This document shows positions 2,137 through 35,905 of a DNA stretch of 64,000 nucleotides, piece after piece (position 1 is the first letter of the stretch; each line of letters starts with the position of its first letter). Under the pieces are notes generated by a model that saw nothing but the letters and a program-made list of their open reading frames with translations, was not told where the DNA came from and made no database searches. The position numbers and the translations under genes are program-made. The DNA comes from Mycolicibacterium confluentis (lineage in GTDB: Bacteria; Actinomycetota; Actinomycetes; Mycobacteriales; Mycobacteriaceae): the NCBI RefSeq assembly GCF_010729895.1, contig NZ_AP022612.1, positions 5,394,001 through 5,458,000 on the forward strand, given 5' to 3'.

Positions 2137-3099
2137 TCAACTCCGCCCGGCGAAGGTGGCGCGGTACTCGGTGGGCGACACATCGAGCAGCCGGCGGAAA
2201 TGCAGCCGCAGGTTCGATCCGGTCCCCAGGCCGACCTCTTCGGCGATCCGATCGACCGGCAGGCGGGTGCTCTCCAAGAGTTCCCGGGCGGTGTCCACCC
2301 GCGCCCGCAGAACCCACTGCAGCGGGGTGCTGCCCGTCTCTTCGGTGAAACGACGCAGGAACGTCCGTGGCGACATCCGCGCATGCGCGGCGAGTCCGGC
2401 GACGGTGATCTGCTCATCGAGCCGCGTCATGGCCCATTCCCGGGTCGCCGCAAGGGATTCGCCTTGGCCGGCCGAGGTGCTCTTGGGCAGGTACTGAGCC
2501 TGTCCCCCAGCCCTGTACGGCGCGGTGACCAGCCCGCGGGCGATCTCGTTCGCGGCGCTCACGCCGAGGTCACGCCGGACCATGTGCAGGCACAGGTCCA
2601 GACCGGCGGCGGCCCCGGCCGAGGTGAGGACGGATCCCTCGTCGACGAAGAGCACGTTCGGTTCGACCGTGATCTGGGGATGACGCTGCGCGAGCTTGTC
2701 GGCCGCGTCCCAGTGCGTCGTCGCGCTGAGACCGTCGAGCAGGCCCGCCTCCGCGAGGGCGAATGCGCCGTAGCAGATCGACGCGATGCGGGCCCCGCGG
2801 GACGCCGCGCTGCGCAGCGCCTCCAGGACCTGTGCCGGTACCGGCCGGCCCGCCGGCGCATATCCGGGAACGATGATCGTGTCCGCCTCGGCCAGTGCGT
2901 CGAGTCCCCGTGGGACGGTGAAACCGAATCCTCCGTGGGACGGCACGGTACCGGCGCTCACCCCGCACGCCGATACCTCATATCCGAACCCCGTCTCCGG
3001 ATGGAACACCTCCGCCGGGATCCCGACGTCCATCGGGAGTGCCCCCTCGAGGACGAGGACCACCACCTGATGCGGTCCTTGACAGCTAGGAGAGTGCAT
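2137..3099 (-). CDS. GlxA-type AraC-family regulator with DJ-1/PfpI domain
   Basis: A 320-residue protein. The N-terminal DJ-1/PfpI-like sensor domain (about residues 8-180) holds the nucleophile-elbow motif ASICYGAFALAEAG. The C-terminal part (about 215-318) is an AraC double helix-turn-helix (VAGLAAHARMSPRTFLRRF and RLPVDRIAEEVGLG). The family regulates amine, glycine-betaine or aldehyde metabolism; the ligand here is unknown. ATG 3099 is chosen over ATG 3135 because GCGAGGCAAC gives a Shine-Dalgarno at correct spacing. It overlaps the upstream esterase stop by 14 bp, so the two are co-transcribed and translationally coupled. Confidence 0.9.
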   Translation of the reverse strand: MHSPSCQGPHQVVVLVLEGALPMDVGIPAEVFHPETGFGYEVSACGVSAGTVPSHGGFGFTVPRGLDALAEADTIIVPGYAPAGRPVPAQVLEALRSAASRGARIASICYGAFALAEAGLLDGLSATTHWDAADKLAQRHPQITVEPNVLFVDEGSVLTSAGAAAGLDLCLHMVRRDLGVSAANEIARGLVTAPYRAGGQAQYLPKSTSAGQGESLAATREWAMTRLDEQITVAGLAAHARMSPRTFLRRFTEETGSTPLQWVLRARVDTARELLESTRLPVDRIAEEVGLGTGSNLRLHFRRLLDVSPTEYRATFAGRS

Positions 3100-4138
3100 G
3101 TTGCCTCGCGAATTCCCAAGTGAGAACACTTGCATCGGGTCCTGCGTGGTCGGTGAACAGTCCGGCACCGGACGGTCCGGGCCAGGAGTGCCCCATGCCC
3201 TCGACGAGATACGACTCGACGAGCGTGGCACCATCTGCCGCGGTCCGGGTGCTGCGGGTGTAGGCGTGGCGGTCGGGTCCAGCCGGCGTTCTGTGGACTT
3301 GCTCGACCACGCCGAGACTGTCGTTGAGCATGCCGTCGTCGACCAGATCCTGCACCGCGGTCCAATGCGCAACGAGGCGATCGGCGACCAGCGGCGGCAC
3401 CACCTCGTCCTGCGCACCCTGGATGACGAGCATCGGCACATGCCTGGCCCGCTGTCCCATCTGGGCCCACGCCTGACGCGCGGTGTACTCCGGCGGAGTG
3501 GCGTCCGGATCGTCGGGGCGCACCTGATTGAGCCCGTACTCGCCGCCCGCTACGGAGGTGACCGTCGCGAACAGATCGGGATAGGTTGCCGCGAGGATCA
3601 CAGCGGTGCCGGCGCCGGAGGAGGCGCCCACGACATGGACCCGGTGCGGATCGGCCCCGTAGTCCGCGACAACCTGTCGAGCGGCGCCGGCCAACAGCGC
3701 GGGTTCTCCACTGCCGCGGTGTTGTTCGCGCGGGTCACCCGAATCCCAACAGTTGACCGTGCCGCGGAGCAGTCGCTGGGTCGGATAGACCACGATGAAT
3801 CCTTCGCGGTCGGCCAGGCCGTTGAGCTGAGTGGTCGCCTTCATCGAGTTCCACCCGAATCCGGTCATCGCGCACCCGTGGATCGCCATGACCACCGGCA
3901 GCCCGGAGCCCCACTCGTGATGTGGCGGGACGTGCACCTGGTATCGCTGACGGCCACCGTCTCCGACGTACACGTGGTTGCGGTCGCCTGCGCCCATCGC
4001 CCATGGCATTCCGAATTGGGCGGCGGCGGTGAGCCCGGTCGCCGCCATGGTCAACGCCAAGGCCAGGGCCAAGGCGGGGCGCCTACGACGAACGATTGCG
4101 TTGGTGCTGGTGGTACCCATCGAGTCGGTAAACGCCAT
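3086..4138 (-). CDS. Secreted PHB-depolymerase-family esterase (LpqC/feruloyl esterase-like)
   Basis: A 350-residue alpha/beta hydrolase. An Arg-rich N-region (RRRR) and a hydrophobic Ala/Leu stretch make a clear Sec signal peptide, with cleavage likely near LTAAA. The mature part has the oxyanion region VMAIHGCAMTG, a nucleophile elbow GASSGAGTA, and the C-terminal GMGHSWPG holding the catalytic His. The family hydrolyses polyhydroxyalkanoate, acetyl-xylan or feruloyl esters outside the cell. ATG 4120 is an alternative start. It is coupled to the GlxA-type regulator downstream. A 22-bp palindrome stands 46 bp upstream of the start, in the 319-bp gap shared with the divergent sigma-factor gene. 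Confidence 0.88.
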   Translation of the reverse strand: MAFTDSMGTTSTNAIVRRRRPALALALALTMAATGLTAAAQFGMPWAMGAGDRNHVYVGDGGRQRYQVHVPPHHEWGSGLPVVMAIHGCAMTGFGWNSMKATTQLNGLADREGFIVVYPTQRLLRGTVNCWDSGDPREQHRGSGEPALLAGAARQVVADYGADPHRVHVVGASSGAGTAVILAATYPDLFATVTSVAGGEYGLNQVRPDDPDATPPEYTARQAWAQMGQRARHVPMLVIQGAQDEVVPPLVADRLVAHWTAVQDLVDDGMLNDSLGVVEQVHRTPAGPDRHAYTRSTRTAADGATLVESYLVEGMGHSWPGPSGAGLFTDHAGPDASVLTWEFARQHALS

Positions 4139-4183: not shown

Positions 4184-4231
4184 CAAGACGGGACGACCCG
4201 TCTTGACACGAGACGACCCGTTCCGTATCGT
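4184..4231 (-). promoter_or_regulatory. Bipartite operator between the esterase and sigma-factor genes
   Basis: Read on the minus strand, this 48-bp block aligns without gaps at 38 of 48 positions to 11609-11656 in front of the TetR gene at 11690. Its proximal half is a perfect palindrome at 4184-4205 (arms CAAGACGGG and CCCGTCTTG around ACGA). The distal half contains ACGATACG and TCGTCTCGTG. The arrangement points to two adjacent sites for a TetR-family dimer, probably the 11690 product. The rest of the 4139-4457 gap shows AGGAAT just before the sigma-factor start and no other clear element. Confidence 0.6.
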
Positions 4232-4457: not shown

Positions 4458-5093
4458 ATGAGCCATCCCGCTCAACCCGACGACGACGAACTGACCGCCC
4501 GTTTCGAGCGCGAGGTGATCCCGCTCCTGGACAGACTCTTCAACGCGGCAATGCGACTGACCCAACAACGGGCCGACGCGGAAGACCTGGTCCAGGAGAC
4601 GATGATCCGGGCGTACGCAGGGTTCCGGAGCTACCAGCCCGGCACCAATCTCGCCGGCTGGCTGCTGCGCATCCAGGCGAACGCGCACATCAGCGGCTAT
4701 CGCAAGCGGATGCGCCGTCCCACCGAAACCATGATGAGCACGATCCACGAATGGCAACTGACCGACCACGCCGCGCGGTTGCCGCGATCGCTCCGCTCGG
4801 CGGAACTGGTCGTCCTGGAATCCCTACCCGACGACGACATCAGGGCCGCCTTGGACAAATTGCCGGAGATATTCCGGATGGCGGTGTACTACGCCGACGT
4901 CGAAGGTCTGTCCCACAAGGAGATCTGCGCCATCACCGGAACGCCGCCGGGCACCGTCATGTCCCGCATCCATCGCGGCAGATCACGGTTGCGGGTGCTG
5001 CTCGCCGACCTCGCCGCCGACCGCGGGTACGTCCCGCCCCCTACTTCTCGCGGCGGCAAGCAGCCCGCCGCCTCAGCACCGGCCGCGCACTGA
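4458..5093 (+). CDS. ECF sigma factor, SigH-like paralogue
   Basis: A 211-residue group-4 sigma factor. Region 2 (about residues 10-85) holds DAEDLVQETMIRAYAGFRSY and ANAHISGYRKRMRRP. Region 4 (about 130-190) holds the helix-turn-helix HKEICAITGTPPGTVMSRIH. Order and wording closely follow mycobacterial SigH (AVYYADVEG, GTVMSRxHRGR), which drives thiol/oxidative-stress genes and is normally held by the zinc anti-sigma RshA encoded beside it. No anti-sigma gene is adjacent here. It has a Shine-Dalgarno AGGAATC. It leads a five-gene plus-strand operon, with 49 bp to the next start. The C-terminal tail is Pro/Ala-rich. Confidence 0.92.
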   Translation: MSHPAQPDDDELTARFEREVIPLLDRLFNAAMRLTQQRADAEDLVQETMIRAYAGFRSYQPGTNLAGWLLRIQANAHISGYRKRMRRPTETMMSTIHEWQLTDHAARLPRSLRSAELVVLESLPDDDIRAALDKLPEIFRMAVYYADVEGLSHKEICAITGTPPGTVMSRIHRGRSRLRVLLADLAADRGYVPPPTSRGGKQPAASAPAAH

Positions 5094-5141
5094 CCCACCA
5101 TTTGGTCAATGCATTACGGCCACTTCCCTTTTGGAGAACAC

Positions 5142-6677
5142 GTGAAATCCCAAGCCATACTTCCTGCCCTGAGTCTGGCGGTCTTGCTCACGGCGTGTAC
5201 GTCGGCGCCGGCAAGTACTCTGCCCAACGCCTTGGACCGCTTCTATGAGCAGCGGATCGCCTGGGAAACCTGTGATGATTACGCCAGCACAGCCATCGAG
5301 ACCGCGGTGTTCGCCGCCGCGCCCACGGCCGAATGTGGGCGTCTGATGGTGCCGTTGAATTATCAACAGCCGTCGGGCAAGACGGCGCGACTCGCGGTCA
5401 TGCGGGTGCCCGCCCGGGGCGAGGCGATCGGCTCGCTGGTCATCAATCCCGGCGGGCCGGGCGGCTCGGGCCTGTTCGCCGCCGCGGCCACCTCGCTGGG
5501 GCTTGCCGAGAACCCCGTCACCGAGAGCTTCGACCTGGTCGGTCTGGATCCCCGCGGAGTGGGCCGATCGGAGCCGAGCATCGACTGCTTCACCGACACC
5601 GACACCGAAGCCGACGAGGGCGACGTACCGCTGACCACCCAGGGCACGACTGTCCAATGGACGGAGGCGGATACCCGGGCAATCGTCGACCGCTGTGCCG
5701 CAGGTTCGGGTGGCGCCGACGTGCTGGCCAGTGTCGGCACCCGCGACGCAGCCCGGGACATCGACGTGTTGCGGGCCGTTCTCGGGGACGAGAAGCTGAC
5801 CTTCCTGGGCCAGAGCTACGGGACCCGGCTGGGTGCCGTGTACGCCGAGCAATTCCCGCAGAACATACGGGCCATGCTGCTCGACGGGGCGATCGACCCG
5901 CACCTGGGCACCGCGCAGCGTCGGATCGGCGCCTTCGCCGGGTTTCAGCGCTCCTTCGAACAGATGGCCGCGTATTGCGCCACGCAGGCCATCTGTCCGC
6001 TGGGCCACGACCCGGCAGGTGCCACCAAGACATTCGCTCAGATTGTGCGTCCGCTCTACGACACCCCTGTTCCCGCGCTGGGATCCGAGTTGAGTTACAA
6101 CGAGGCGATCGGCGGCGTGATCTCCGGCCTGTACACCGAGACGGCCTGGCCGCGCGTCATCGCCGGCATCGCACAGCTGCAGCAGGGCCGCGGCGATGAG
6201 CTGCTGCAGCTGACCTACGACTTCGCGCTCCGGGACGCCGAGGGCCGGTGGACCAATTTCACCGAAGCGCTCTACGCGATCAACTGCATGGACGAGGAGC
6301 GTCTCAGCGAGACCGAGGGCGACGAATTACGGGCGGCCATTTTCGGGGTGGCACCGTTCATGGATCCCGGGGTGCAGCTGACGGGAGCGCGCGACGGCTG
6401 CGAACACTGGCCCGCCGAACCCACCCTCGGTTGCCCCTACGCCACCGAGATCGCCGGTCTTCCAACGACATTGGTCGTGTCCATCACCGGAGATCCCACC
6501 ACGCCCCATGCCAGCGGCATCAGCCTGGCAAGCGCCCTGGGCAGCGCATTGCTCACCGTCGAGGGCGAAGGGCACACCATCGTGACAGCGGGTACCAACG
6601 ACTGCGTCAACGCAATCGCCGCCGATTACCTGATCCACCTCGAACTGCCGCCCGCGGGCACGTCATGTCGGCTATGA
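5142..6677 (+). CDS. Secreted alpha/beta-hydrolase lipoprotein, tripeptidyl-aminopeptidase-like
   Basis: A 511-residue protein related to the TAP/CaeA (Hip1) serine peptidase-esterases. GTG 5142 is chosen because GGAGAACAC precedes it and it starts a lipoprotein signal with lipobox LTAC, so the protein is probably anchored outside the membrane. Motifs are the oxyanion loop INPGGPGGSG, nucleophile elbow GQSYGTRLG, DPRGVGRS, and a TAP-type C-terminal domain with catalytic His in EGHTIV. Paired cysteines suggest disulfides. Its stop TGA overlaps the ATG of the 33-residue ORF that follows. It is the second gene of the sigma-factor operon. The substrate is unknown. Confidence 0.9.
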   Translation: MKSQAILPALSLAVLLTACTSAPASTLPNALDRFYEQRIAWETCDDYASTAIETAVFAAAPTAECGRLMVPLNYQQPSGKTARLAVMRVPARGEAIGSLVINPGGPGGSGLFAAAATSLGLAENPVTESFDLVGLDPRGVGRSEPSIDCFTDTDTEADEGDVPLTTQGTTVQWTEADTRAIVDRCAAGSGGADVLASVGTRDAARDIDVLRAVLGDEKLTFLGQSYGTRLGAVYAEQFPQNIRAMLLDGAIDPHLGTAQRRIGAFAGFQRSFEQMAAYCATQAICPLGHDPAGATKTFAQIVRPLYDTPVPALGSELSYNEAIGGVISGLYTETAWPRVIAGIAQLQQGRGDELLQLTYDFALRDAEGRWTNFTEALYAINCMDEERLSETEGDELRAAIFGVAPFMDPGVQLTGARDGCEHWPAEPTLGCPYATEIAGLPTTLVVSITGDPTTPHASGISLASALGSALLTVEGEGHTIVTAGTNDCVNAIAADYLIHLELPPAGTSCRL

Positions 6678-6775
6678 AAGGCCAACCATGCGCCAACACA
6701 GGGCATTTCGTGAATAGCCCGATGTGTCCGTGCGGGCGTGACAGCATCGAATACAACGGAAGGGCGTGCCGATGA
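6674..6775 (+). CDS. 33-residue four-cysteine peptide, coupled at both ends
   Basis: This ORF has an ATG at 6674 that overlaps the hydrolase stop (ATGA). Its stop TGA 6773-6775 overlaps the ATG of the next gene (again ATGA). The product has four Cys at positions 6, 18, 20 and 32 and one His at position 11, with CPCG at its centre. It has no signal peptide or membrane segment. It also carries the GGAAGGG ribosome-binding site of the next gene inside its 3' end. It could be a tiny zinc or iron-sulfur-binding protein, a redox-sensing leader peptide or a peptide substrate. I do not recognise a family. Its own Shine-Dalgarno is poor, so translation probably depends on re-initiation. Confidence 0.6.
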   Translation: MKGQPCANTGHFVNSPMCPCGRDSIEYNGRACR

Positions 6776-8400
6776 GCGCAGCAACGGAGAAAGTTGCCCA
6801 CGTGGGCCGGCTGGCGGACATCCCCGAGAGGACGCCCCACGACGTGCAGATCGCCGGTGTGGATCTGGTCCTCATCCGTGTCGGCAAGGACATCTCTGCG
6901 CTGTACGGTCGCTGCGCACATCGGGGCGCCCGCATGGCCGAGGGCCAGATCAAAGGTGACACAGTGGTATGCGGTCTGCACGGATGGCGGTACGACATCA
7001 CCACCGGTATCGCACCGGTCAACCCGTCCGTGGCGCTGACGAAGTTTCCCGCCTGGGTCACCGACGGCGAAGTCTATGTCGACGAGTCCGCGGTGTCCGC
7101 ATTCGCTGCGGCGAACCCGCAGCCGTATGGCGACGACGGTTACCAGGGCACCTGGATCAAGCCCTCCGATACGCCCGAGGAGCCGTTCGTCACGCAGATT
7201 CACGAGCTCGCCGCGCATGGACTCGACCGGGTGGGCCCCGACGGCCCGGTGGACGCGATGGGGGTGCCGCGGGACCGACTGCCCTCGTGGGATTCGATCC
7301 AGTTGTTGCCCGCCCAGCTGCACCGGTTGCCGCTGTTGGAGGACGAGCCGGTCAATACCGAGACCGTGATCGGCCCCGGTGCCGCCCGGCCGCTCACGCT
7401 CGAGATCCCGTTGTTCGTCAGTGATATGAGCTTCGGCGCGCTGTCTCAGGAAGCCAAGACCGCCCTGGCTGCCGGAGCGGACCTGGCCGGCACCGGGATC
7501 TGTTCGGGTGAGGGCGGCATGCTCCCCGAGGAACAGCAGGCCAATTCGAGGTACTTCTACGAACTGGCGTCCGGCCGCTTCGGCTGGAGCTTCGAGCATC
7601 TGGACAAGGTGCAGGCATTCCACTTCAAGGGCGGGCAGGGCGCCAAGACCGGCACCGGCGGTCACCTGCCCGGGACCAAGGTGGTCGACCGCATCGCCGA
7701 GGTCCGGGGATTGGCCCCGGGGACCTCGGCGATCTCGCCGGCCCGGTTCCCGGAGTGGGACTCACTGCAACACTTCAAGGACTTCGCCGCCCGGGTGCGC
7801 GAGGAGTCCGGCGGAATCCCGGTGGGCTACAAGATGAGCGCGCAACACGTCGAGCGGGACATCGACGCCGTGCTGGAAATCGGCGTGGACTATCTGATCC
7901 TCGACGGCCGTGGCGGCGGTACCGGGGCCGCGCCGACGATCTTCCGCGACCACATCTCCGTACCCACCATCCCGGCGCTGGCGCGGGCGCGCCGACACCT
8001 GGACTCCTCCGGGGCCGACGACGTCACGCTGGTGATCACCGGTGGCATCCGCACCCCGGCCGACATGGTCAAGGCGCTGGCGCTGGGCGCCGACGCCATC
8101 GCCGTCTCCAACGCGGCACTGCAGGCCATTGGGTGCGTGGGCATGCGCGCCTGCCACACCAATGCCTGCCCTGCGGGCATCGCCACCCAGGACCCACTGT
8201 TGCGCGCGCGGCTCCCGGTGCCGGCGGCCGCCCAACGACTGAATCGCTACCTGCGCTCCGCGGTGGAGCTGATGGTGGTGCTGGCCCGGGCGTGTGGACA
8301 TCGCCGCCTGGCCGACTTCAACCTCGACGATCTGACGACATTCGACCGGGACTTCGCCTATCTGTCCGGAGTTCCCTATGCAGGGGCGGTGCCATTGTGA
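6772..8400 (+). CDS. Rieske / glutamate synthase-like FMN domain fusion oxidoreductase
   Basis: A 542-residue protein. The N-terminal Rieske 2Fe-2S domain has ligands C48-x-H50 and C67-x2-H70. From about residue 150 it is a GltB-type FMN barrel: FVSDMSFGALSQEAK, GEGGM, KGGQGAKTGTGGHLPG, DGRGGGTGAAP and ITGGIRTPADMVKALALGADA. A 3Fe-4S motif follows at C455-x5-C461-x4-C466. The chain Rieske-FMN-3Fe-4S lacks the glutaminase domain of true glutamate synthase, so it may act as a dehydrogenase or transfer electrons to the next enzyme. ATG 6772 is chosen over GTG 6766 because of GGAAGGG spacing. It ends in a GTGA overlap with the next gene. The reaction is unknown. Confidence 0.9.
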   Translation: MSAATEKVAHVGRLADIPERTPHDVQIAGVDLVLIRVGKDISALYGRCAHRGARMAEGQIKGDTVVCGLHGWRYDITTGIAPVNPSVALTKFPAWVTDGEVYVDESAVSAFAAANPQPYGDDGYQGTWIKPSDTPEEPFVTQIHELAAHGLDRVGPDGPVDAMGVPRDRLPSWDSIQLLPAQLHRLPLLEDEPVNTETVIGPGAARPLTLEIPLFVSDMSFGALSQEAKTALAAGADLAGTGICSGEGGMLPEEQQANSRYFYELASGRFGWSFEHLDKVQAFHFKGGQGAKTGTGGHLPGTKVVDRIAEVRGLAPGTSAISPARFPEWDSLQHFKDFAARVREESGGIPVGYKMSAQHVERDIDAVLEIGVDYLILDGRGGGTGAAPTIFRDHISVPTIPALARARRHLDSSGADDVTLVITGGIRTPADMVKALALGADAIAVSNAALQAIGCVGMRACHTNACPAGIATQDPLLRARLPVPAAAQRLNRYLRSAVELMVVLARACGHRRLADFNLDDLTTFDRDFAYLSGVPYAGAVPL

Positions 8401-10376
8401 CCAGTACAGACCACACTCGCGACGAGATCGATGACCAGCAGCGAAAGTCGTTCTGGCACAGGGTCGCCGATGCGCACGACTTCGCCGACGGCGAGGTCCG
8501 GGTCTGCCCGGTCGGAGTCAAGACCGTTGCGGTGACCAAACTGCACGGCCGTTACGGGGCCATCGACAACCGCTGCCCGCATCAGGGTGGGCCCCTCGGG
8601 CAGGGAACGGTGGAGAACGACAAGATCCGCTGTCCCTGGCATGGGTTCGACTTCGACCCCTTCACCGGTGCGGCCGCCGGTGGGCCCGATTACGACGTTC
8701 CCACGTATGCGGTGGAGGCCCGCGACGACGGCATCTACGTCGCTGCCGATACGCCGCTCCCGCACACCCGGACCGTCAGCGACGTCCTGGTGGAAACGAT
8801 GACCGAGTGGGGCGTGGACACCGTCTTCGGCATGGTCGGACACTCCAATCTGGGCGTTGCCGAGGCGCTCCGCCGTGCGGAAACTGCCGGGAAGATCCGG
8901 TATTTCGGCGTTCGGCACGAGGGCGCCGCGGCCTTCGCCGCCGCTGCCTACGGGAAGCTCACCGGGCGTCCCGCGGCCTGCTTCGGGATCGCCGGGCCGG
9001 GTTCGACGAACCTGCTCACCGGACTCTACGACGCCAAGTCCGACCGCGTGCCGGTGCTGGCACTGTCGGGGAACGTCAACTCATCGGTGGCGGGCAAGGG
9101 CGCCTTCCAGGACATCGACCTGCTCGCCGCCTTCGACGATGTGGCGGTCTACTCCACCATGGTGCGGGCCGGATCCGAGCACGGCGAGCTCATGACGCTG
9201 GCACTCAAGCACGCGATCCTGGAACGCGGGGTCGGCCACCTGGTCATCCCGGACGACGTTCAGGTGCTGGAAGCACCCGATCAACCGGCATCCGGTCCGC
9301 ACGGCCGGATGCCGGATCTGCGGACCGGGCCGCCCACCGCGCCGTTGCAACAAGCCCTGGAACAGATCGCCGCGGCCACCCGTCCGGTGGTGATCGTCGG
9401 CGCCGGCGCGCGATACGACATGGACGCCGTCATCGCCCTCGCCGAGGCTTTGAACGCCCCGGTCCTGACCACCTTCAAGGCCAAGGGGCAGATCTCCGAC
9501 ACCCATCCGCTGGCCTGCGGTGTGCTCGGCCGCTCGGGTACCCCGGTCGCGTCCTGGATGATGAACAAGGCCGACCTGCTGCTCGTTTTCGGGGCCTCAT
9601 TCTCCGACCACACCGGCATCTCGCCCTATAAGCCGACCGTCCAGGTCGACACCGATCCGCTGGCGCTGGGCCGTTTCCGGCCGGTGACGGTGCCAGTGCT
9701 CGGGGATGTCGGAATGTGTTGTGCTGCGTTGCATGCCGGGTTGCGTATGCATCCGGAGGTGGTCGACCAGCGTGCCGAGGTGGCGGAGCGGTGGGCCGTC
9801 TGGCGGGGTGAGAAGACGCGGCGGGCGGCGGCGCGCACCGGTCGCGGCGTTCCCGCGGCAGCGGTCATCGAGGCACTCAGCGATGTGGTGCCCGCCGACG
9901 CCGTCGTCGCGGTCGACGTCGGCGACCACGCCTACTCGTTCGGGCGGTACTTCGAGACCGAACAGCAGTTGGTGCTGATGTCGGGTTATCTGGGGTCCAT
10001 CGGCTTCGGCTTCCCCGCCGCCATGGGCGCCTGGGCCGCCGCCCCGGACCGGCCCATCGTGGCGGTCACCGGTGACGGAGGGTTCGGCCAGTACCTGGCC
10101 GAGATCACCACTGCGGTCAAGTACGGGATGAACATCACCCACATCCTGCTCAACAACGGTGAACTGGCGAAGATCAGTGACGAACAGCGGGCCGCCGAGT
10201 ACGCGGTGTGGCAGACCTCGCTGCACAACCCGGATTTCGCGGCCTTCGCCCGTAACTGTGGTGCGTACGGTGTCCGGGTGGAGGATCCGGCCGACCTCGC
10301 CGCGGCCATCACCGAGGCGCTGGACCATCCCGGGCCGGCACTCGTGGAGATCGTCACCGATCCGCAGTCCCGTTAG
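8397..10376 (+). CDS. Rieske / thiamine-diphosphate enzyme fusion (acetolactate synthase/pyruvate oxidase-like)
   Basis: A 659-residue protein starting at GTG 8397, which overlaps the previous stop. The N-terminal Rieske domain has ligands C60-x-H62 and C79-x2-H82, with the same 16-residue spacing as the preceding enzyme. The three-part ThDP enzyme begins near residue 123. It has the cofactor-activating Glu175 in VRHEGAAAF, the central domain PVVIVGAGARYDMDAV, and the Mg/ThDP motif GDG (559-561) ending in LLNNGELAKI. The family decarboxylates 2-oxoacids and joins or oxidises the product. A Rieske cluster on such an enzyme suggests redox coupling, as in pyruvate:acceptor oxidases. It is the last gene of the operon; a convergent lipoprotein gene follows. 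Confidence 0.9.
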   Translation: MTSTDHTRDEIDDQQRKSFWHRVADAHDFADGEVRVCPVGVKTVAVTKLHGRYGAIDNRCPHQGGPLGQGTVENDKIRCPWHGFDFDPFTGAAAGGPDYDVPTYAVEARDDGIYVAADTPLPHTRTVSDVLVETMTEWGVDTVFGMVGHSNLGVAEALRRAETAGKIRYFGVRHEGAAAFAAAAYGKLTGRPAACFGIAGPGSTNLLTGLYDAKSDRVPVLALSGNVNSSVAGKGAFQDIDLLAAFDDVAVYSTMVRAGSEHGELMTLALKHAILERGVGHLVIPDDVQVLEAPDQPASGPHGRMPDLRTGPPTAPLQQALEQIAAATRPVVIVGAGARYDMDAVIALAEALNAPVLTTFKAKGQISDTHPLACGVLGRSGTPVASWMMNKADLLLVFGASFSDHTGISPYKPTVQVDTDPLALGRFRPVTVPVLGDVGMCCAALHAGLRMHPEVVDQRAEVAERWAVWRGEKTRRAAARTGRGVPAAAVIEALSDVVPADAVVAVDVGDHAYSFGRYFETEQQLVLMSGYLGSIGFGFPAAMGAWAAAPDRPIVAVTGDGGFGQYLAEITTAVKYGMNITHILLNNGELAKISDEQRAAEYAVWQTSLHNPDFAAFARNCGAYGVRVEDPADLAAAITEALDHPGPALVEIVTDPQSR

Positions 10377-11608: not shown

Positions 11609-11656
11609 ACGATACGATACGTATCGTCTCGGATCAAGACGGTACGTCTCGTGTTG
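11609..11656 (+). promoter_or_regulatory. Double TetR operator between the SDR and TetR genes
   Basis: The first site is a perfect 14-bp palindrome at 11614-11627 (ACGATACGTATCGT). The second at 11639-11652 (ACGGTACGTCTCGT) matches it at 12 of 14 positions, with 25 bp between centres. Both sit between divergent genes, the usual place for TetR autoregulation. The whole 48-bp block recurs inverted at 4184-4231. A TAGTGT hexamer stands 6 nt before the TetR start. Confidence 0.7.
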
Positions 11657-11689: not shown

Positions 11690-12268
11690 ATGCCACCGCT
11701 TCCACCCGATCCCAGCCGACGCAACGAGCACTCACGGCGGGCGATTCTCGAGGCGGCGCTGGAACTGGTGGGCGAGCTCGGCTATGACAACGTCTCTGTC
11801 GAGGCGATCGCCAAACGGGCGGGCTGCGGCAAGCAGACCATCTACCGCTGGTGGCCGTCCAAGGGCGCGGTGGTCCTCGAGGCCGCCACCCAGAGTCTGA
11901 ATCCCGTCGTCGTATTCCCCGACTCCGGCGACATGGTCACCGATCTGCGCGAGCAGCTGGTCGGAATCATCGAGCTGATCGCGACCACGAGTTTCGGAGC
12001 GGCGTACCGGGGTGTCATCGCCGCCGGTCAGTCCGACCCCGACCTGTTGCAGGCCGTCTTCGAGCAGGTCATCGAACCCAATATCAAAGGGTTCACTGCG
12101 CGGGCGGCCCTGGCGCAACAACGCGGCGAGATGCGTCCCGACGCCGACGTGGCAACGCTGCGCGACGTGCTCTACGGGGTCATCGAGTACCGGCTGTTCC
12201 ACGACATGCCGATCGAGTCCCAACACATCGACGCACTGCTGACGCTCACCTTCGACGGGGTGCGCTGA
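11690..12268 (+). CDS. TetR/AcrR-family transcriptional regulator
   Basis: A 192-residue regulator. The N-terminal helix-turn-helix (VSVEAIAKRAGCGKQTIYRWW) is of the common TetR type. A C-terminal effector domain of the TetR_C_11-like kind follows (AAYRGVIAAGQSDPDLLQAVF). It faces the SDR gene and shares its operator region. A related double site in front of the secreted esterase (4138) and sigma-factor gene (4458) suggests a second target. ATG 11690 has TAGTGT 6 nt upstream and no Shine-Dalgarno, so the mRNA is probably leaderless. Confidence 0.92.
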   Translation: MPPLPPDPSRRNEHSRRAILEAALELVGELGYDNVSVEAIAKRAGCGKQTIYRWWPSKGAVVLEAATQSLNPVVVFPDSGDMVTDLREQLVGIIELIATTSFGAAYRGVIAAGQSDPDLLQAVFEQVIEPNIKGFTARAALAQQRGEMRPDADVATLRDVLYGVIEYRLFHDMPIESQHIDALLTLTFDGVR

Positions 12269-12364: not shown

Positions 12365-13189
12365 GTGCCCAGCAGGAACACGCCTCTCGCGGAATTTCTC
12401 CGACAGCATCGCGCCAAGGTCCAACCACGCGATGTCGGGCTACCGACGGGAAGCCGGCGCCGGGTGACCGGACTGCGCCGGGAAGAGGTGGCAAACCTGG
12501 CCGGTATCAGCGTCGACTACTACCACCGCATCGAACAAGGACGCGAGCGGCCATCCGACCAGGTGCTCGATGCCATCGCCGGCACCTTACGGCTCACACC
12601 CGACGCGACCGCATATCTGCGGCATCTGTTGGCGCACTCCACATCCCGGCGCCCGGTCGTCAAGCCGCGACAGCCGGTCAATCCCGCACTGCAGGCCCTG
12701 ATCGACAGCTGGCAGGTGTCTCCGGCGTGTATTCATGACGGTTCCGCAACCGTGGTGATGGCCAACGCGTGTGCCGCCGCGTTGTCGGCGAGCTTCGCGG
12801 TCGGGGGAAACCCGGTGCGCAGCCTGTTCCTCGACGAGGACATGCGTGAGTTCTGCCGGGACTGGGAGGGCCTGACCGCGTGGGCGGTGCGCTGGCTCCG
12901 TGACTTCGCGAGCCACCAACCCGATCCCGGGATGGACGCGTTGATCGAGGAGTTGCGCAGTCATAGCGCGCACTTCCGCGCGCTATGGGCCACCTATGAC
13001 GTCAGGCGTCACGGCCGCGGCCTGCTGTTGATCAACCACCCCCTGGTCGGGCCGCTCGATGTGCACTTCCAACAGCTGGCCCTGCGCGGCAGCGAGTACA
13101 TCATGGTGGTCTACTGGGCCGACCCTGGCTCGCCGTCGGAAGCTGGGTTGCACGAGTTGAGCGGGTGCGAAGTGCCCGAGGTGGTCTGA
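12365..13189 (+). CDS. MmyB-type XRE-family regulator
   Basis: A 274-residue protein. The N-terminal XRE helix-turn-helix (GLRREEVANLAGISVDYYHRIEQGRE) is followed by the MmyB-like ligand-binding domain (about residues 105-265) with the typical FLDEDMREFCRDWE and LRSHSAHFRALWATYDVR. Actinobacterial members of this family often act on a neighbouring oxidoreductase or hydrolase gene and may bind fatty acid-like ligands. No obvious divergent target exists here, since the preceding TetR gene runs in the same direction. GTG start with GAGGAA just upstream. A second member of the family lies at 26449. Confidence 0.9.
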   Translation: MPSRNTPLAEFLRQHRAKVQPRDVGLPTGSRRRVTGLRREEVANLAGISVDYYHRIEQGRERPSDQVLDAIAGTLRLTPDATAYLRHLLAHSTSRRPVVKPRQPVNPALQALIDSWQVSPACIHDGSATVVMANACAAALSASFAVGGNPVRSLFLDEDMREFCRDWEGLTAWAVRWLRDFASHQPDPGMDALIEELRSHSAHFRALWATYDVRRHGRGLLLINHPLVGPLDVHFQQLALRGSEYIMVVYWADPGSPSEAGLHELSGCEVPEVV

Positions 13190-13565: not shown

Positions 13566-14441
13566 ATGGCTTTCGTCACCGAGGACAACATCACCGATCT
13601 GGCCGTCAAGCGTTGGGCGACTGCGCACTCGCCGCGTACGGCCGAACTCATGAGCGTCCTTGTCCGCCACATCCACGACTACTCCCGCGAGGTCGCGCTG
13701 ACCACCGAGGAGTGGATGGCCGCGGTCGACTGGCTCACGGAGGTGGGCAAGATCAGCACCGACAAGCGCCAGGAATTCATCCTTGCCTCCGACGTGTTCG
13801 GCTTGAGCACGCTGGTCGTGCAGATGAACAACCGGTTCCCGGCGCCCGCGACCCCGGCCACCGTGCTGGGCCCGTTCTACATCGACGGCTCCCCGCCGGT
13901 CCCGTTCGGATTCGACATGTCCGACGGCGTCGACGGGACACCGCTGTTCATCACCGGCACTCTCACCGACACCGTAGGCACCCCGATCGCCGGTGCGACC
14001 CTCGACGTGTGGCAGGCCGACGCCACCGGGACCTACGAAGCGCAGTACGCCGATCTCGACGAAGCCCGACTACGGGCCAAGTACTCCACCCGCTCCGATG
14101 GCACCTACTGCGTGCGCACGATCGCCCCGATCGGATACACGATCCCGATGGACGGGCCGGTCGGGCGGCTGATCAGCGCCACGGATATCAGTGCATACCG
14201 GCCCGCCCATGTCCACTGTCTGTTCGAGGCACCCGGCTACCACCGGCTGATCACTCATCTCTTCCGGTACGGCACCGACTACCTCGACACCGACGTCGTC
14301 TTCGGTGTCAAGGATGAACTCGTCGTCAGCTTCGTCGAGCACCCCGCGGGTATGGGCCCCGACGGCCGGCACGTGGACGAACCCTTCCTGGTGGCCCGCT
14401 ATGACTTCGTTCTGCAAGCGCTGCGCACCGACCGGTTGTGA
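13566..14441 (+). CDS. Intradiol ring-cleavage dioxygenase (hydroxyquinol/catechol 1,2-dioxygenase type)
   Basis: A 291-residue protein. The helical N-terminal dimerisation domain is followed by the beta-sandwich catalytic domain. VLGPFYIDGSPPVP, GATLDVWQADATGTY and IAPIGYTIP carry the Tyr ligands of the non-haem Fe(III), and YRPAHVHCLF carries the two His ligands. The family opens catechol or hydroxyquinol between the hydroxyl carbons to give (maleyl)muconate-type products. The length and the GPFYI motif favour hydroxyquinol 1,2-dioxygenase. An azoreductase-like quinone reductase follows after 23 bp, which may keep the quinol substrate reduced. No maleylacetate reductase is present nearby. 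Confidence 0.88.
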   Translation: MAFVTEDNITDLAVKRWATAHSPRTAELMSVLVRHIHDYSREVALTTEEWMAAVDWLTEVGKISTDKRQEFILASDVFGLSTLVVQMNNRFPAPATPATVLGPFYIDGSPPVPFGFDMSDGVDGTPLFITGTLTDTVGTPIAGATLDVWQADATGTYEAQYADLDEARLRAKYSTRSDGTYCVRTIAPIGYTIPMDGPVGRLISATDISAYRPAHVHCLFEAPGYHRLITHLFRYGTDYLDTDVVFGVKDELVVSFVEHPAGMGPDGRHVDEPFLVARYDFVLQALRTDRL

Positions 14442-14464
14442 CCCCGAGATCTAAAGGACAGATC

Positions 14465-15112
14465 ATGAGCACACTCCTGCACCTCGACTCCTCGGTCCGC
14501 GCCGAGGGGTCGGTCAGCCGCGCGCTGACAGCTCGCGCGGTTGCCCGTTGGTGTGCAGCCAATCCCGCCGGGAAGGTGACCTACCGCGACCTGGCGGCCG
14601 ACCCGATACCGCATCTGGATGCCTCGAACGGTCTGGCGTTGATGACCCCGGCTGAGCACCACAATCCCGCCGAAGCCCGGACCTACGCGTTGAGCAGGAA
14701 GCTCATCGACGAGATCAGGGCCGCCGACACCGTGGTGTTGGGCATGGCCTTGTACAACTACGCCGCGCCCAGCCTGGTGAAGACCTGGGTCGACCATATC
14801 GTCGCCGCCGGGCTGTCGTTCGCCCCTGACGGCACCGGACTACTCACCGGGACGGAGTTCGTCGTGATCGAAAGCCGCGGCGGAAGCTACCGGGAAGGCA
14901 CTCCCAAGCATGGCTGGGATCACGCGGAATCCTGGATCGCCCAGGCGGTTTCGCTGACCGGATTGGAGCCGCAGATCATCGTGGCCGAGCTGACCATGGC
15001 CGCCGCCGACGCGCGTATGGCGCACCTTCGACACCTGGCTCGGGTGAGCCTGGAACGCGCGCACGCGCAGATCGACGCCCTCTGGGCTGTCGAGAGCGAG
15101 AGCGTCGCCTGA
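14465..15112 (+). CDS. FMN-dependent NADH:quinone reductase / azoreductase (AzoR family)
   Basis: A 215-residue flavodoxin-fold protein. The N-terminal LHLDSSVRAEGSVSRAL binds the FMN phosphate, MALYNYAAPSLVKTWVDHI contacts the isoalloxazine, and SRGGSY closes the site. AzoR enzymes reduce quinones and azo dyes by two electrons. ATG 14465 has AAAGGA in front. It is close behind the intradiol dioxygenase and probably in the same transcript, which fits a role in quinone/quinol recycling during aromatic breakdown. Confidence 0.9.
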   Translation: MSTLLHLDSSVRAEGSVSRALTARAVARWCAANPAGKVTYRDLAADPIPHLDASNGLALMTPAEHHNPAEARTYALSRKLIDEIRAADTVVLGMALYNYAAPSLVKTWVDHIVAAGLSFAPDGTGLLTGTEFVVIESRGGSYREGTPKHGWDHAESWIAQAVSLTGLEPQIIVAELTMAAADARMAHLRHLARVSLERAHAQIDALWAVESESVA

Positions 15113-15381: not shown

Positions 15382-16215
15382 TCAGTTGATGCTGCAGGCC
15401 ATCGGGGTGTGGCTACACCTGCAGACCGCAGCGTACTCGGCCGGTGTGCGGTAGCCCAGGGCCGAGTGCCGGTGGCGGTGGTTGTGGTCGGCCTTGAAGT
15501 CGCCGATGACCACGCGGGCCTCGAGCAGGGTGTTCCAGTGGTTGCGGTTGAGGCACTCCTTGCGTAGCCGGTTGTTGAACGATTCGATGTGTCCGTTGTT
15601 CCACGGCGTGCCCGGTGGGATATACGACATGCCGAATCTCCCGTCGCAGAACTGTTGCAGTGCTTGAGAAATGAACTCCGGACCGTTGTCCATCCGCAGC
15701 ACCTTCGGTGGCCCGCCCGCCGCGGCGAACACTTTCTTGAGCTCGTCGACGAGCCGCTCGGCAGTGATCGAGCGTTCGACGATGTTGAGCAGCGACACCC
15801 TCGTGTGTTCGTCGATCATCGACGCGATCTTGATCGCCTTGCCGTCGATAGTGGAGTCGAACTGGAAGTCGATCGCCCACACCACGTTCGGCGCGTCGGC
15901 CACGATCGGCGGTATCGAGGAGATCCCGGCCCGCTTACGCGGACTACGGACCCGCACCTGCAGTCCCTCCTCGCGCCACAGACGGTGGATCTTCTTCTTG
16001 TTGACCTCACGGCGCTCGTCGTAGCGCAACGCCGCCCAGGCACGTCGGAACCCATGGCACGGGTGCTTGACCGCGTAGGAGCGCAGCCAGGCCCGCATCT
16101 CGGCGTCAGGATCGGCGGGGGTCTGCGACAACGGCAGACGTCGGCAGGTGGAACGGGCCAGCCCAACAGCTTTGCACGCCAACCGTTCCGACATGCCCAA
16201 CGCGGTGGTGAGCAT
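15382..16215 (-). CDS. IS3-family transposase OrfB, catalytic part
   Basis: A 277-residue frame counted from its first ATG. The integrase core shows AIDFQFDSTIDG (first Asp), LRMDNGPEF (second Asp) and HIESFNNRLRKECLN (Glu), which is a complete DDE triad. The N-terminal HTH_21 segment (KHPCHGFRRAWAALRYD) binds the ends. In the element the frame is open upstream to the frameshift site, where it joins OrfA; residues ILSPAAKRRAVD precede the ATG. The functional product is therefore probably the OrfAB fusion. The sequence is closest in style to the IS407 group, with modest certainty. Confidence 0.9.
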   Translation of the reverse strand: MLTTALGMSERLACKAVGLARSTCRRLPLSQTPADPDAEMRAWLRSYAVKHPCHGFRRAWAALRYDERREVNKKKIHRLWREEGLQVRVRSPRKRAGISSIPPIVADAPNVVWAIDFQFDSTIDGKAIKIASMIDEHTRVSLLNIVERSITAERLVDELKKVFAAAGGPPKVLRMDNGPEFISQALQQFCDGRFGMSYIPPGTPWNNGHIESFNNRLRKECLNRNHWNTLLEARVVIGDFKADHNHRHRHSALGYRTPAEYAAVCRCSHTPMACSIN

Positions 16216-35744: not shown

Positions 35745-35905
35745 TCCGTTGAGCGCAGTATCCTGGCTCCTGGATCGACGCTCACCCGACCTTCCAGCCT
35801 CGCGGCCGTGGTCTGCGCGGGTTCGCTCCCCAGTCACAGTGGCGGGACCGCACCGGATTCACACCGGTTTCCTGCCCACCCAACGGAGTCGGCCGGTGGC
35901 CGACA
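35745..35905 (-). ncRNA. Cobalamin (B12) riboswitch
   Basis: The minus strand shows the conserved core AAACCGGTGTGAATCCGGT, then GGTCCCGCCACTGTGA, and after a variable part the B12 box GGAGCCAGGATACTG. These are the hallmarks of the cobalamin riboswitch class. It sits about 40-200 nt before the btuF start and should turn the importer off when adenosyl- or methylcobalamin is plentiful. The 5' boundary is approximate. Confidence 0.93.

Follow-up and report, generated by a model that had tools for sequence, protein, structure and literature searches.

In a stretch of 64,000 nucleotides from Mycolicibacterium confluentis (contig NZ_AP022612.1, positions 5,394,001 to 5,458,000; hereafter the window), from a genome of 5.88 Mb in one contig with Mycolicibacterium as the source of its closest named protein relatives, five open reading frames lie together on the plus strand at 4458-10376, and the last two of them, here called GltS-R and ThDP-R, encode enzymes that each begin with a Rieske [2Fe-2S] domain (Table 1). 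All five frames were confirmed, as was the tight spacing noted in a preliminary description of this DNA: the stop codon of the sigma factor gene is followed after 48 bases by the likely start of the hydrolase gene, and the remaining three junctions are 4-base overlaps (ATGA, ATGA and GTGA; GltS-R has an alternative start, GTG, at 6766). Pfam domain calls on the window proteins, all above cut-off, likewise bore out the claim that two unrelated enzyme families each carry an N-terminal Rieske domain here.

Table 1. Features of the M. confluentis locus discussed in the text, in window coordinates
Feature	Position	Strand	Basis and remarks
Sigma-70-like promoter match, TTGACA-17-TATCGT	4203..4231	+	Consensus scan; function predicted
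TetR-type palindrome-like site	4210-4229		Inside the promoter match; 5 mismatches to the symmetric consensus from 11611-11630
Extracytoplasmic function (ECF) sigma factor, SigH-like but under the SigH model cut-off	4458..5093	+	Pfam PF04542/PF08281 (Sigma70_r2/r4_2)
TAP-like alpha/beta hydrolase, predicted lipoprotein	5142..6677	+	PF00561 (Abhydrolase_1) and PF08386 (TAP-like)
Open frame of 33 aa with 5 Cys (Cys peptide)	6674..6775	+	No Pfam or NCBIfam match
GltS-R: N-terminal Rieske [2Fe-2S] domain and flavin mononucleotide (FMN)/[3Fe-4S]-type glutamate-synthase core, 542 aa	6772..8400	+	PF00355 61.5 bits, PF01645 300 bits
ThDP-R: N-terminal Rieske domain and pyruvate-oxidase-like thiamine diphosphate (ThDP) enzyme, 659 aa	8397..10376	+	PF00355 58.9 bits, PF02776/PF00205/PF02775
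TetR-type palindrome, 20 bp, between short-chain dehydrogenase/reductase (SDR) and TetR genes	11611..11630	.	Similar to the site at 4210-4229
TetR-family regulator	11690..12268	+	PF00440/PF16859

By Pfam, GltS-R consists of Rieske and Glu_synthase domains only, and no glutaminase (N-terminal type-2 glutamine amidotransferase) domain was found in it. Its [3Fe-4S] ligand set, C455-x5-C461-x4-C466, is present in 49 rows of a 50-row alignment that includes two non-orthologues (the remaining row being a gap), and its Rieske ligands in 45 (four gaps and one other); the alignment also showed that it keeps a KxxQGAK segment, which we take to be part of the 2-oxoglutarate/FMN site. By sequence, then, GltS-R is the core of a glutamate synthase that carries a Rieske domain of its own and lacks the glutaminase domain. 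It shares the FMN/2-oxoglutarate-type core, the three cysteines and the KxxQGAK segment with the ferredoxin- and NADPH-dependent glutamate synthases (PDB 1ofd, 1ea0, 7mfm), but matches these 1472-1520-aa chains over their core alone, being 542 residues long against approximately 1500 and having a Rieske donor domain built in.

ThDP-R has the TPP_enzyme N, M and C domains behind its Rieske domain. In an alignment of 80 rows (the window and 79 of the 80 loci described below, L057 being absent) the Rieske ligands, E175, F237/Q238, K592 and E596 were invariant and D560-G561-G562 and N587 were found in every row, so that the GDG...NN motif and the catalytic glutamate of ThDP enzymes are in place. 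The residue at the position of the active-site phenylalanine, presumably Phe479 in the pyruvate oxidase of Lactobacillus plantarum (LpPOX) and Phe465 in that of Escherichia coli (EcPOX), is a lysine, Lys592, in all 80 rows. Alignment to EcPOX stops at its residue 527 of 572, beyond which presumably lies the membrane-binding tail. The best NCBIfam pyruvate oxidase model, PRK08611, gave 396.7 bits (cut-off 742) and spxB gave 282 bits (cut-off 638), and acetolactate-synthase models matched also. Over its length ThDP-R has the same core as the quinone-dependent PoxB of E. coli (PDB 3ey9/3eya) and LpPOX (PDB 1pox), and it keeps the I-x2-EQ segment, Phe237/Gln238 and the catalytic residue Glu175, but it differs from these enzymes in its N-terminal Rieske domain, in Lys592 and in scoring under the curated cut-offs; it is best described, as far as sequence goes, as a ThDP enzyme of the pyruvate oxidase type to which a Rieske domain is fused.

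With the ThDP-R alignment a scan was made of the genome_contigs collection (described as comprising 84,980 species genomes), and the best 80 of at least 571 relatives (at least 591 stretches), picked by ThDP-R alone, were examined for their gene surroundings. By title these loci come from Actinomycetota, Cyanobacteria, Bacteroidota, Planctomycetota, Acidobacteriota, Gemmatimonadota, Nitrospirota, Pseudomonadota, Verrucomicrobiota and further phyla, many being metagenome bins. GltS-R (>50% identity) was found near ThDP-R in 43 of the 80 (on the same strand in 40, upstream in 40 and within 200 bp in 26), and in 38 of the 66 loci for which 2 kb upstream was available. An initial count of 45 was lowered to 43 as the proteins in L082 (32%) and L111 (45%) are non-orthologues. 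The loci were picked without regard to GltS, and so this frequency is not due to selection for it. Pairwise distances of the two fusions also correlate (Mantel r 0.35, p 0.001 for 42 loci, a set with two non-orthologous GltS rows in it; r 0.32, p 0.003 without mycobacteria).

Among 396 Actinomycetota genomes GltS-R was present in 8 (leaving out four weaker matches that begin at residue 67 or later), ThDP-R in 11 and both in 6 (Fisher p 2.5e-9, uncorrected for ancestry); these six genomes represent six families, and the fusions are adjacent in four of them. Within the genus, GltS-R has a patchy spread (22 of 218 genomes), and ThDP-R lies directly downstream of it in 25 of 27 mycobacterial GltS-R loci, some of which are from the same genomes. 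The two exceptions are second GltS-R copies with no ThDP-R beside them (L164 and L173, the first copies being L150 and L151), one of which stands near a TAP-like hydrolase; in one further mycobacterial genome GltS-R is split over two frames (L149/L172), by a frameshift or an assembly error. Both fusions are also found on haloarchaeal plasmids of Salinirubellus, Halorarius and Halorubrum (approximately 1.4, 4 and 17 kb apart), encoding proteins 55-58% identical to those of the window, and ThDP-R only was seen, within the stretches viewed, in Haloferax larsenii and on a Mycobacterium abscessus plasmid. On the latter (M. abscessus subsp. bolletii 50594) the Rieske-ThDP gene follows a DUF4331 gene (L012 10010-11911), and GltS-R is not annotated in the 22 kb viewed. 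In these neighbourhood searches the pair recurs widely; contrary to the outcome that the preliminary description had named as refuting it, the fusions are not restricted to unrelated contexts devoid of conserved neighbours, though each can occur alone. The conserved unit is the GltS-R/ThDP-R pair, which crosses phyla and is patchily distributed.

Mycobacterium smegmatis MC2 155 encodes GltS-R at 78% identity (a figure from the near-identical cluster mate P0049 and P0059). MSMEG_6459, which we had considered as this protein, is not it, being a 1542-aa protein (PMC5705681). By RNA-seq, MSMEG_5593 (pyruvate dehydrogenase), MSMEG_5594 (ferredoxin-dependent glutamate synthase, Fd-GOGAT) and MSMEG_5595 (MarR) were co-regulated under zinc limitation (PMC8866557), and from their names and order MSMEG_5593-5594 are probably this pair, accompanied by the MarR regulator MSMEG_5595. 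The authors regard MSMEG_5594 as an ordinary GOGAT that uses nitrogen from glutamine; should it be GltS-R, the glutaminase domain of such an enzyme would be missing.

Related cores carry other small redox domains. Type 5 CISD proteins join a tandem CDGSH to a glutamate synthase FMN domain (PMC3174974, PMC5859297) and so resemble GltS-R in having an N-terminal [2Fe-2S] module on this core, but the module is two CDGSH rather than a Rieske domain, and no ThDP partner is mentioned in the accessible parts of these sources. A CDGSH member from a Vibrio fortis plasmid (L014 7689-9239) shares 55% identity with the window GltS-R overall and 63% over the core. On a Monoglobus plasmid the GltS core (L015 5749-7176) has, as read from its sequence, a rubredoxin-like domain in place of the Rieske domain.

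Both Rieske domains of the window carry the ligand motif CxH-xn-CxxH within PF00355, with a spacing of x16 in each. The preliminary description had taken this identity as a sign that the enzymes were adapted to one carrier or to each other; the identity is real, but it is uninformative because 4 of 7 other Rieske stretches looked at in the same genome also have x16, and the argument was dropped. What does exceed chance is that the two fusions are found together. A tree of 74 Rieske domains (21 from GltS-R, 19 from ThDP-R, 16 from the cytochrome described below and 18 from the M. confluentis genome, a chosen subset over 103 columns; two of 20 own-genome stretches gave no motif) placed the GltS-R domains and the ThDP-R domains each in one clade, apart from those of the cytochrome, bootstrap values not being settled. 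The cytochrome group needs two changes and has one long own-genome row inside it. The tree gives no support to a recent common ancestry of these domains, and from their separate clades each enzyme seems to have gained its domain on its own.

When open frames were clustered across 86 loci (the 80 plus four from haloarchaea, one from a mycobacterium and the window), a third Rieske fusion emerged. This protein of approximately 345 aa, here cytb-Rieske, has a membrane domain of the ferric reductase type (PF01794), which by family makes it a b-type cytochrome, and a Rieske domain at its C terminus; it is matched at low score by the MsrQ model, and was found in 16 of the 86 loci, from eight phyla by title (only matches above 500 bits were counted, as the profile otherwise matches all 86 loci through the Rieske domain). 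Each of the 16 loci also encodes a one-helix partner of approximately 265 aa with an invariant Cys pattern, fused to cytb-Rieske in two of them, 15 encode a small membrane protein and 14 have GltS-R. A model of the partner (predicted local distance difference test, pLDDT, 82) weakly resembled tandem OB barrels in a fold search. In L097 one strand carries, in order, GltS-R, the small transmembrane protein, cytb-Rieske, its partner, DUF2721, ThDP-R, a malic enzyme and a DUF5996-like protein. Model M4 of the FRD superfamily has the same pair of domains as cytb-Rieske (PMC3591440), but it is an architecture listing, with no tie to the ThDP or GltS fusions in the available text. The occurrence of three Rieske-bearing protein types in one neighbourhood points to an electron-sharing system.

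Further recurrent neighbours are DUF5996-like proteins (27 of 86 loci, three of them through weak profile matches of 48-68 bits), CPA1 antiporters (14) and malic enzymes (5: four by NCBIfam, and L099 by profile score only). A malic-profile match in L123 was not counted as it overlaps the ThDP frame. Malic enzymes make pyruvate and so point to pyruvate as a substrate. DUF5996-like 'WPHHFD' proteins recur beside the pair (e.g. L080 4010-4882); a predicted model (pLDDT 93) gave no PDB fold match at E<=0.001, no account of DUF5996 was found in the open-access literature searched, and no DUF5996 protein was found in the M. confluentis genome. Of 235 candidate frames within 1.5 kb, 25 were dropped by eye as likely spurious, and in neither batch of the remainder (129 and 81) did any other Pfam family exceed 4 members.

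The other three genes of the run were judged against 24 mycobacterial loci (22 fetched, L053 and the window). The preliminary description had seen a five-gene unit under thiol or oxidative-stress control by a SigH-like factor. The sigma factor does recur, in 7 of the 24 loci including the window (six by clustering, one by tblastn), but it scored 234 bits against the SigH model TIGR02947, under the cut-off of 251.55, which two genes elsewhere in the genome pass. No match to the SigH-type promoter GGAA-N16-20-GTT, presumably the consensus for an autoregulated SigH promoter, was found between 1999 and 8890 of the window, and a SigH-type promoter ahead of the operon was accordingly discarded. The hydrolase, whose likely GTG start is followed by a lipobox-like LTAC (a longer frame from ATG 5109 is the alternative), has family members within approximately 7 kb in 4 of the 24 loci, window included, with no fixed place (in three of the four it lies elsewhere or on the other strand), and is a local neighbour outside the conserved unit. 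The idea that the Cys peptide might be an anti-sigma factor, or some other gene under conservation, was rejected: it matched no family, and neither the other 59 of 60 genomes searched in the genus (best E 0.036) nor, at E 1e-3, a further 26 mycobacterial loci gave a significant relative, and its frame is probably not a conserved gene. The five-gene unit is not supported by these results.

Upstream of the sigma gene there is a single sigma-70-like promoter match, 227 bases ahead of it (1 observed against 0.6 expected in shuffles). Because a TetR-type site lies inside this only match, control of the operon by TetR rather than SigH is suggested, as a prediction from the DNA. The palindrome consensus was derived from the window itself; such sites occur in 5 of the 24 mycobacterial loci, each time with at least one copy beside TetR, the sigma gene or GltS-R, with one further site mid-locus in L152, and when each locus was shuffled three times by mononucleotide, sites were absent in 22 of the 24 and averaged 0.67 and 0.33 in the other two. 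TetR proteins of the cluster found here are the commonest neighbour family in these loci (14 of 24), followed by an AAA/LuxR-type regulator (13; type assigned from one member scanned, and absent from the window), SDR (11), quinone-oxidoreductase-like (10) and DUF5996 (7) proteins.

Elsewhere in the window, an intradiol (catechol-type) dioxygenase and a flavodoxin-fold protein (13566-15112, +) follow an MmyB-like regulator (12365-13189), and their closeness to the TetR and SDR genes gives the surroundings of the pair an aromatic or quinone theme. An integrase-core (transposase-like) frame (15382-16215, -) is a possible edge of a mobile stretch. On the other side, a DJ-1/PfpI and AraC-type helix-turn-helix regulator (2137-3441, -) belongs to a cluster that recurs in 4 of the 24 mycobacterial loci. 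The only Rfam match in the window is a cobalamin riboswitch (35756-35874, -; 76.9 bits, the gathering score being 31.5).

We lean, if only slightly, towards reading the pair as an oxidase of 2-oxoacids and an enzyme acting on 2-oxoglutarate/glutamate that their Rieske domains wire into one redox system. ThDP-R would decarboxylate and oxidise pyruvate or a close 2-oxoacid without lipoate, coenzyme A or NAD, the electrons passing one at a time from ThDP (through flavin adenine dinucleotide, if bound) to its own Rieske cluster. GltS-R would exchange electrons at 2-oxoglutarate/glutamate through its Rieske domain, using free ammonia in place of glutamine. The Rieske domains would act as plugs for an exchange of electrons between the two enzymes, either direct or via a common partner, which may be cytb-Rieske where present and some other acceptor in mycobacteria. 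The existence of alternative plugs on the GltS core (CDGSH pairs and a rubredoxin-like domain) fits this idea of a one-electron plug. As to direction, a flow from ThDP-R to GltS-R (net pyruvate + 2-oxoglutarate + NH3 -> acetate + CO2 + glutamate) can be proposed tentatively, other substrates may be involved with the same tentative standing, and it is rather doubtful that both enzymes feed a common acceptor. Somewhat short of an even chance is the broader proposal that three unrelated redox proteins use Rieske as a common plug linking 2-oxoacid oxidation, 2-oxoglutarate/glutamate and the membrane chain, single electrons being exchanged without lipoate, ferredoxin or NAD(P)H in bacteria and haloarchaea. 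Our guess is that it serves to bypass routes dependent on lipoamide or NAD(P)H when these fail (under metal, electrophile or zinc stress), a guess prompted by the merA, DsrE, rhodanese and dihydrolipoyl-dehydrogenase annotations around the haloarchaeal genes and by the zinc-limitation regulation of MSMEG_5593-5595.

Several observations weigh against this reading. The pairing is not obligatory and either fusion occurs alone: where ThDP-R is flanked by 6 kb on either side (36 loci), GltS-R was found in only 19; the 396 Actinomycetota genomes include two with GltS-R alone and five with ThDP-R alone, and in two of the six joint genomes the fusions are 475 kb apart or on different contigs; and among 251 genomes of the family GltS-R occurs in 9 (5 alone), ThDP-R in 5 (1 alone) and both in 4. 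The membrane component is confined to its 16 loci, 2 of them without GltS-R, and as no PF01794 protein was found in the M. confluentis genome it cannot account for the pair in mycobacteria. Malic enzymes stand beside the pair in few loci, three of the five being in related Bacteroidota. The invariant Lys592, moreover, may mean that the substrate or electron path differs from that of pyruvate oxidase, and warns of a possible 2-oxo-diacid substrate.

Were the enzymes two dehydrogenases without mutual exchange, ThDP-R oxidising a 2-oxoacid and GltS-R oxidising glutamate to 2-oxoglutarate and NH3, each could deliver to one acceptor, be it cytb-Rieske, a quinone or oxygen. GltS-R accompanies cytb-Rieske in most of its loci, as this would predict, and genomes with a solitary GltS-R need another partner, for which an NDH-2-like frame (read from translation) 2 to 5 kb upstream in three of five such genomes is a candidate; glutamate synthase chemistry is also reversible in principle. 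Known glutamate synthases run in the reductive direction, however, and M. confluentis has no cytb-Rieske, nor do we know of an acceptor in mycobacteria, and we regard this explanation as unlikely, while noting that it overlaps with one branch of the wired-pair reading and that the two do not exclude one another. A further step down in likelihood is that the genes are merely co-regulated, serving the same stress need with separate carriers, their Rieske domains having separate partners or structural roles. The separate Rieske lineages, the solitary fusions, the unremarkable ligand spacing and the variation of neighbours and regulators by lineage (TetR, AAA/LuxR-type or, in 7 of 24 loci, ECF sigma; by published name MarR instead in M. 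smegmatis) all agree with it, but three unrelated Rieske-bearing protein types in one neighbourhood would then be a strong coincidence, there being no common partner.

Rieske clusters can be redox-sensitive, and the domain could instead be an oxygen or redox sensor serving as an off-switch, with ThDP-R an acetolactate-synthase-like carboligase or decarboxylase making a metabolite that GltS-R aminates. The ThDP superfamily is promiscuous, acetolactate-synthase models match ThDP-R too, and TetR, SDR and quinone-reductase-like neighbours would suit a metabolite-induced locus; against this, the K592-E596-Q597 segment aligns with FIKDEQ of pyruvate oxidase and not with what we take to be called the Trp motif of acetolactate synthase, and the malic enzymes point to pyruvate, which makes the proposal improbable. 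Least credible, to the point of being very improbable, is the earlier scheme in which a SigH-like sigma factor drives the secreted hydrolase, Cys peptide and two enzymes as one pathway: the spacing, the overlaps and the recurrence of the sigma gene speak for it, but hydrolase and peptide are not kept in place, the promoter is missing and the sigma factor falls below the SigH cut-off.

No account of a Rieske-ThDP/Rieske-GltS pair was found in the open-access literature searched, subscription papers being mostly outside that search; the electron-sharing system proposed here would be undescribed. The M. smegmatis copy makes the wired-pair reading testable in a laboratory strain, and if MSMEG_5594 is GltS-R its interpretation as a glutamine-using GOGAT would be corrected. 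Should the reading be true, it would give a functional context to DUF5996 and to the cytb-Rieske and partner proteins, and Rieske domains would have been acquired repeatedly as exchangeable one-electron connectors. A wide range of organisms would then have a shortcut through central carbon and nitrogen metabolism that needs neither NAD(P)H nor lipoate, hidden by annotation as 'glutamate synthase' and 'pyruvate dehydrogenase'.

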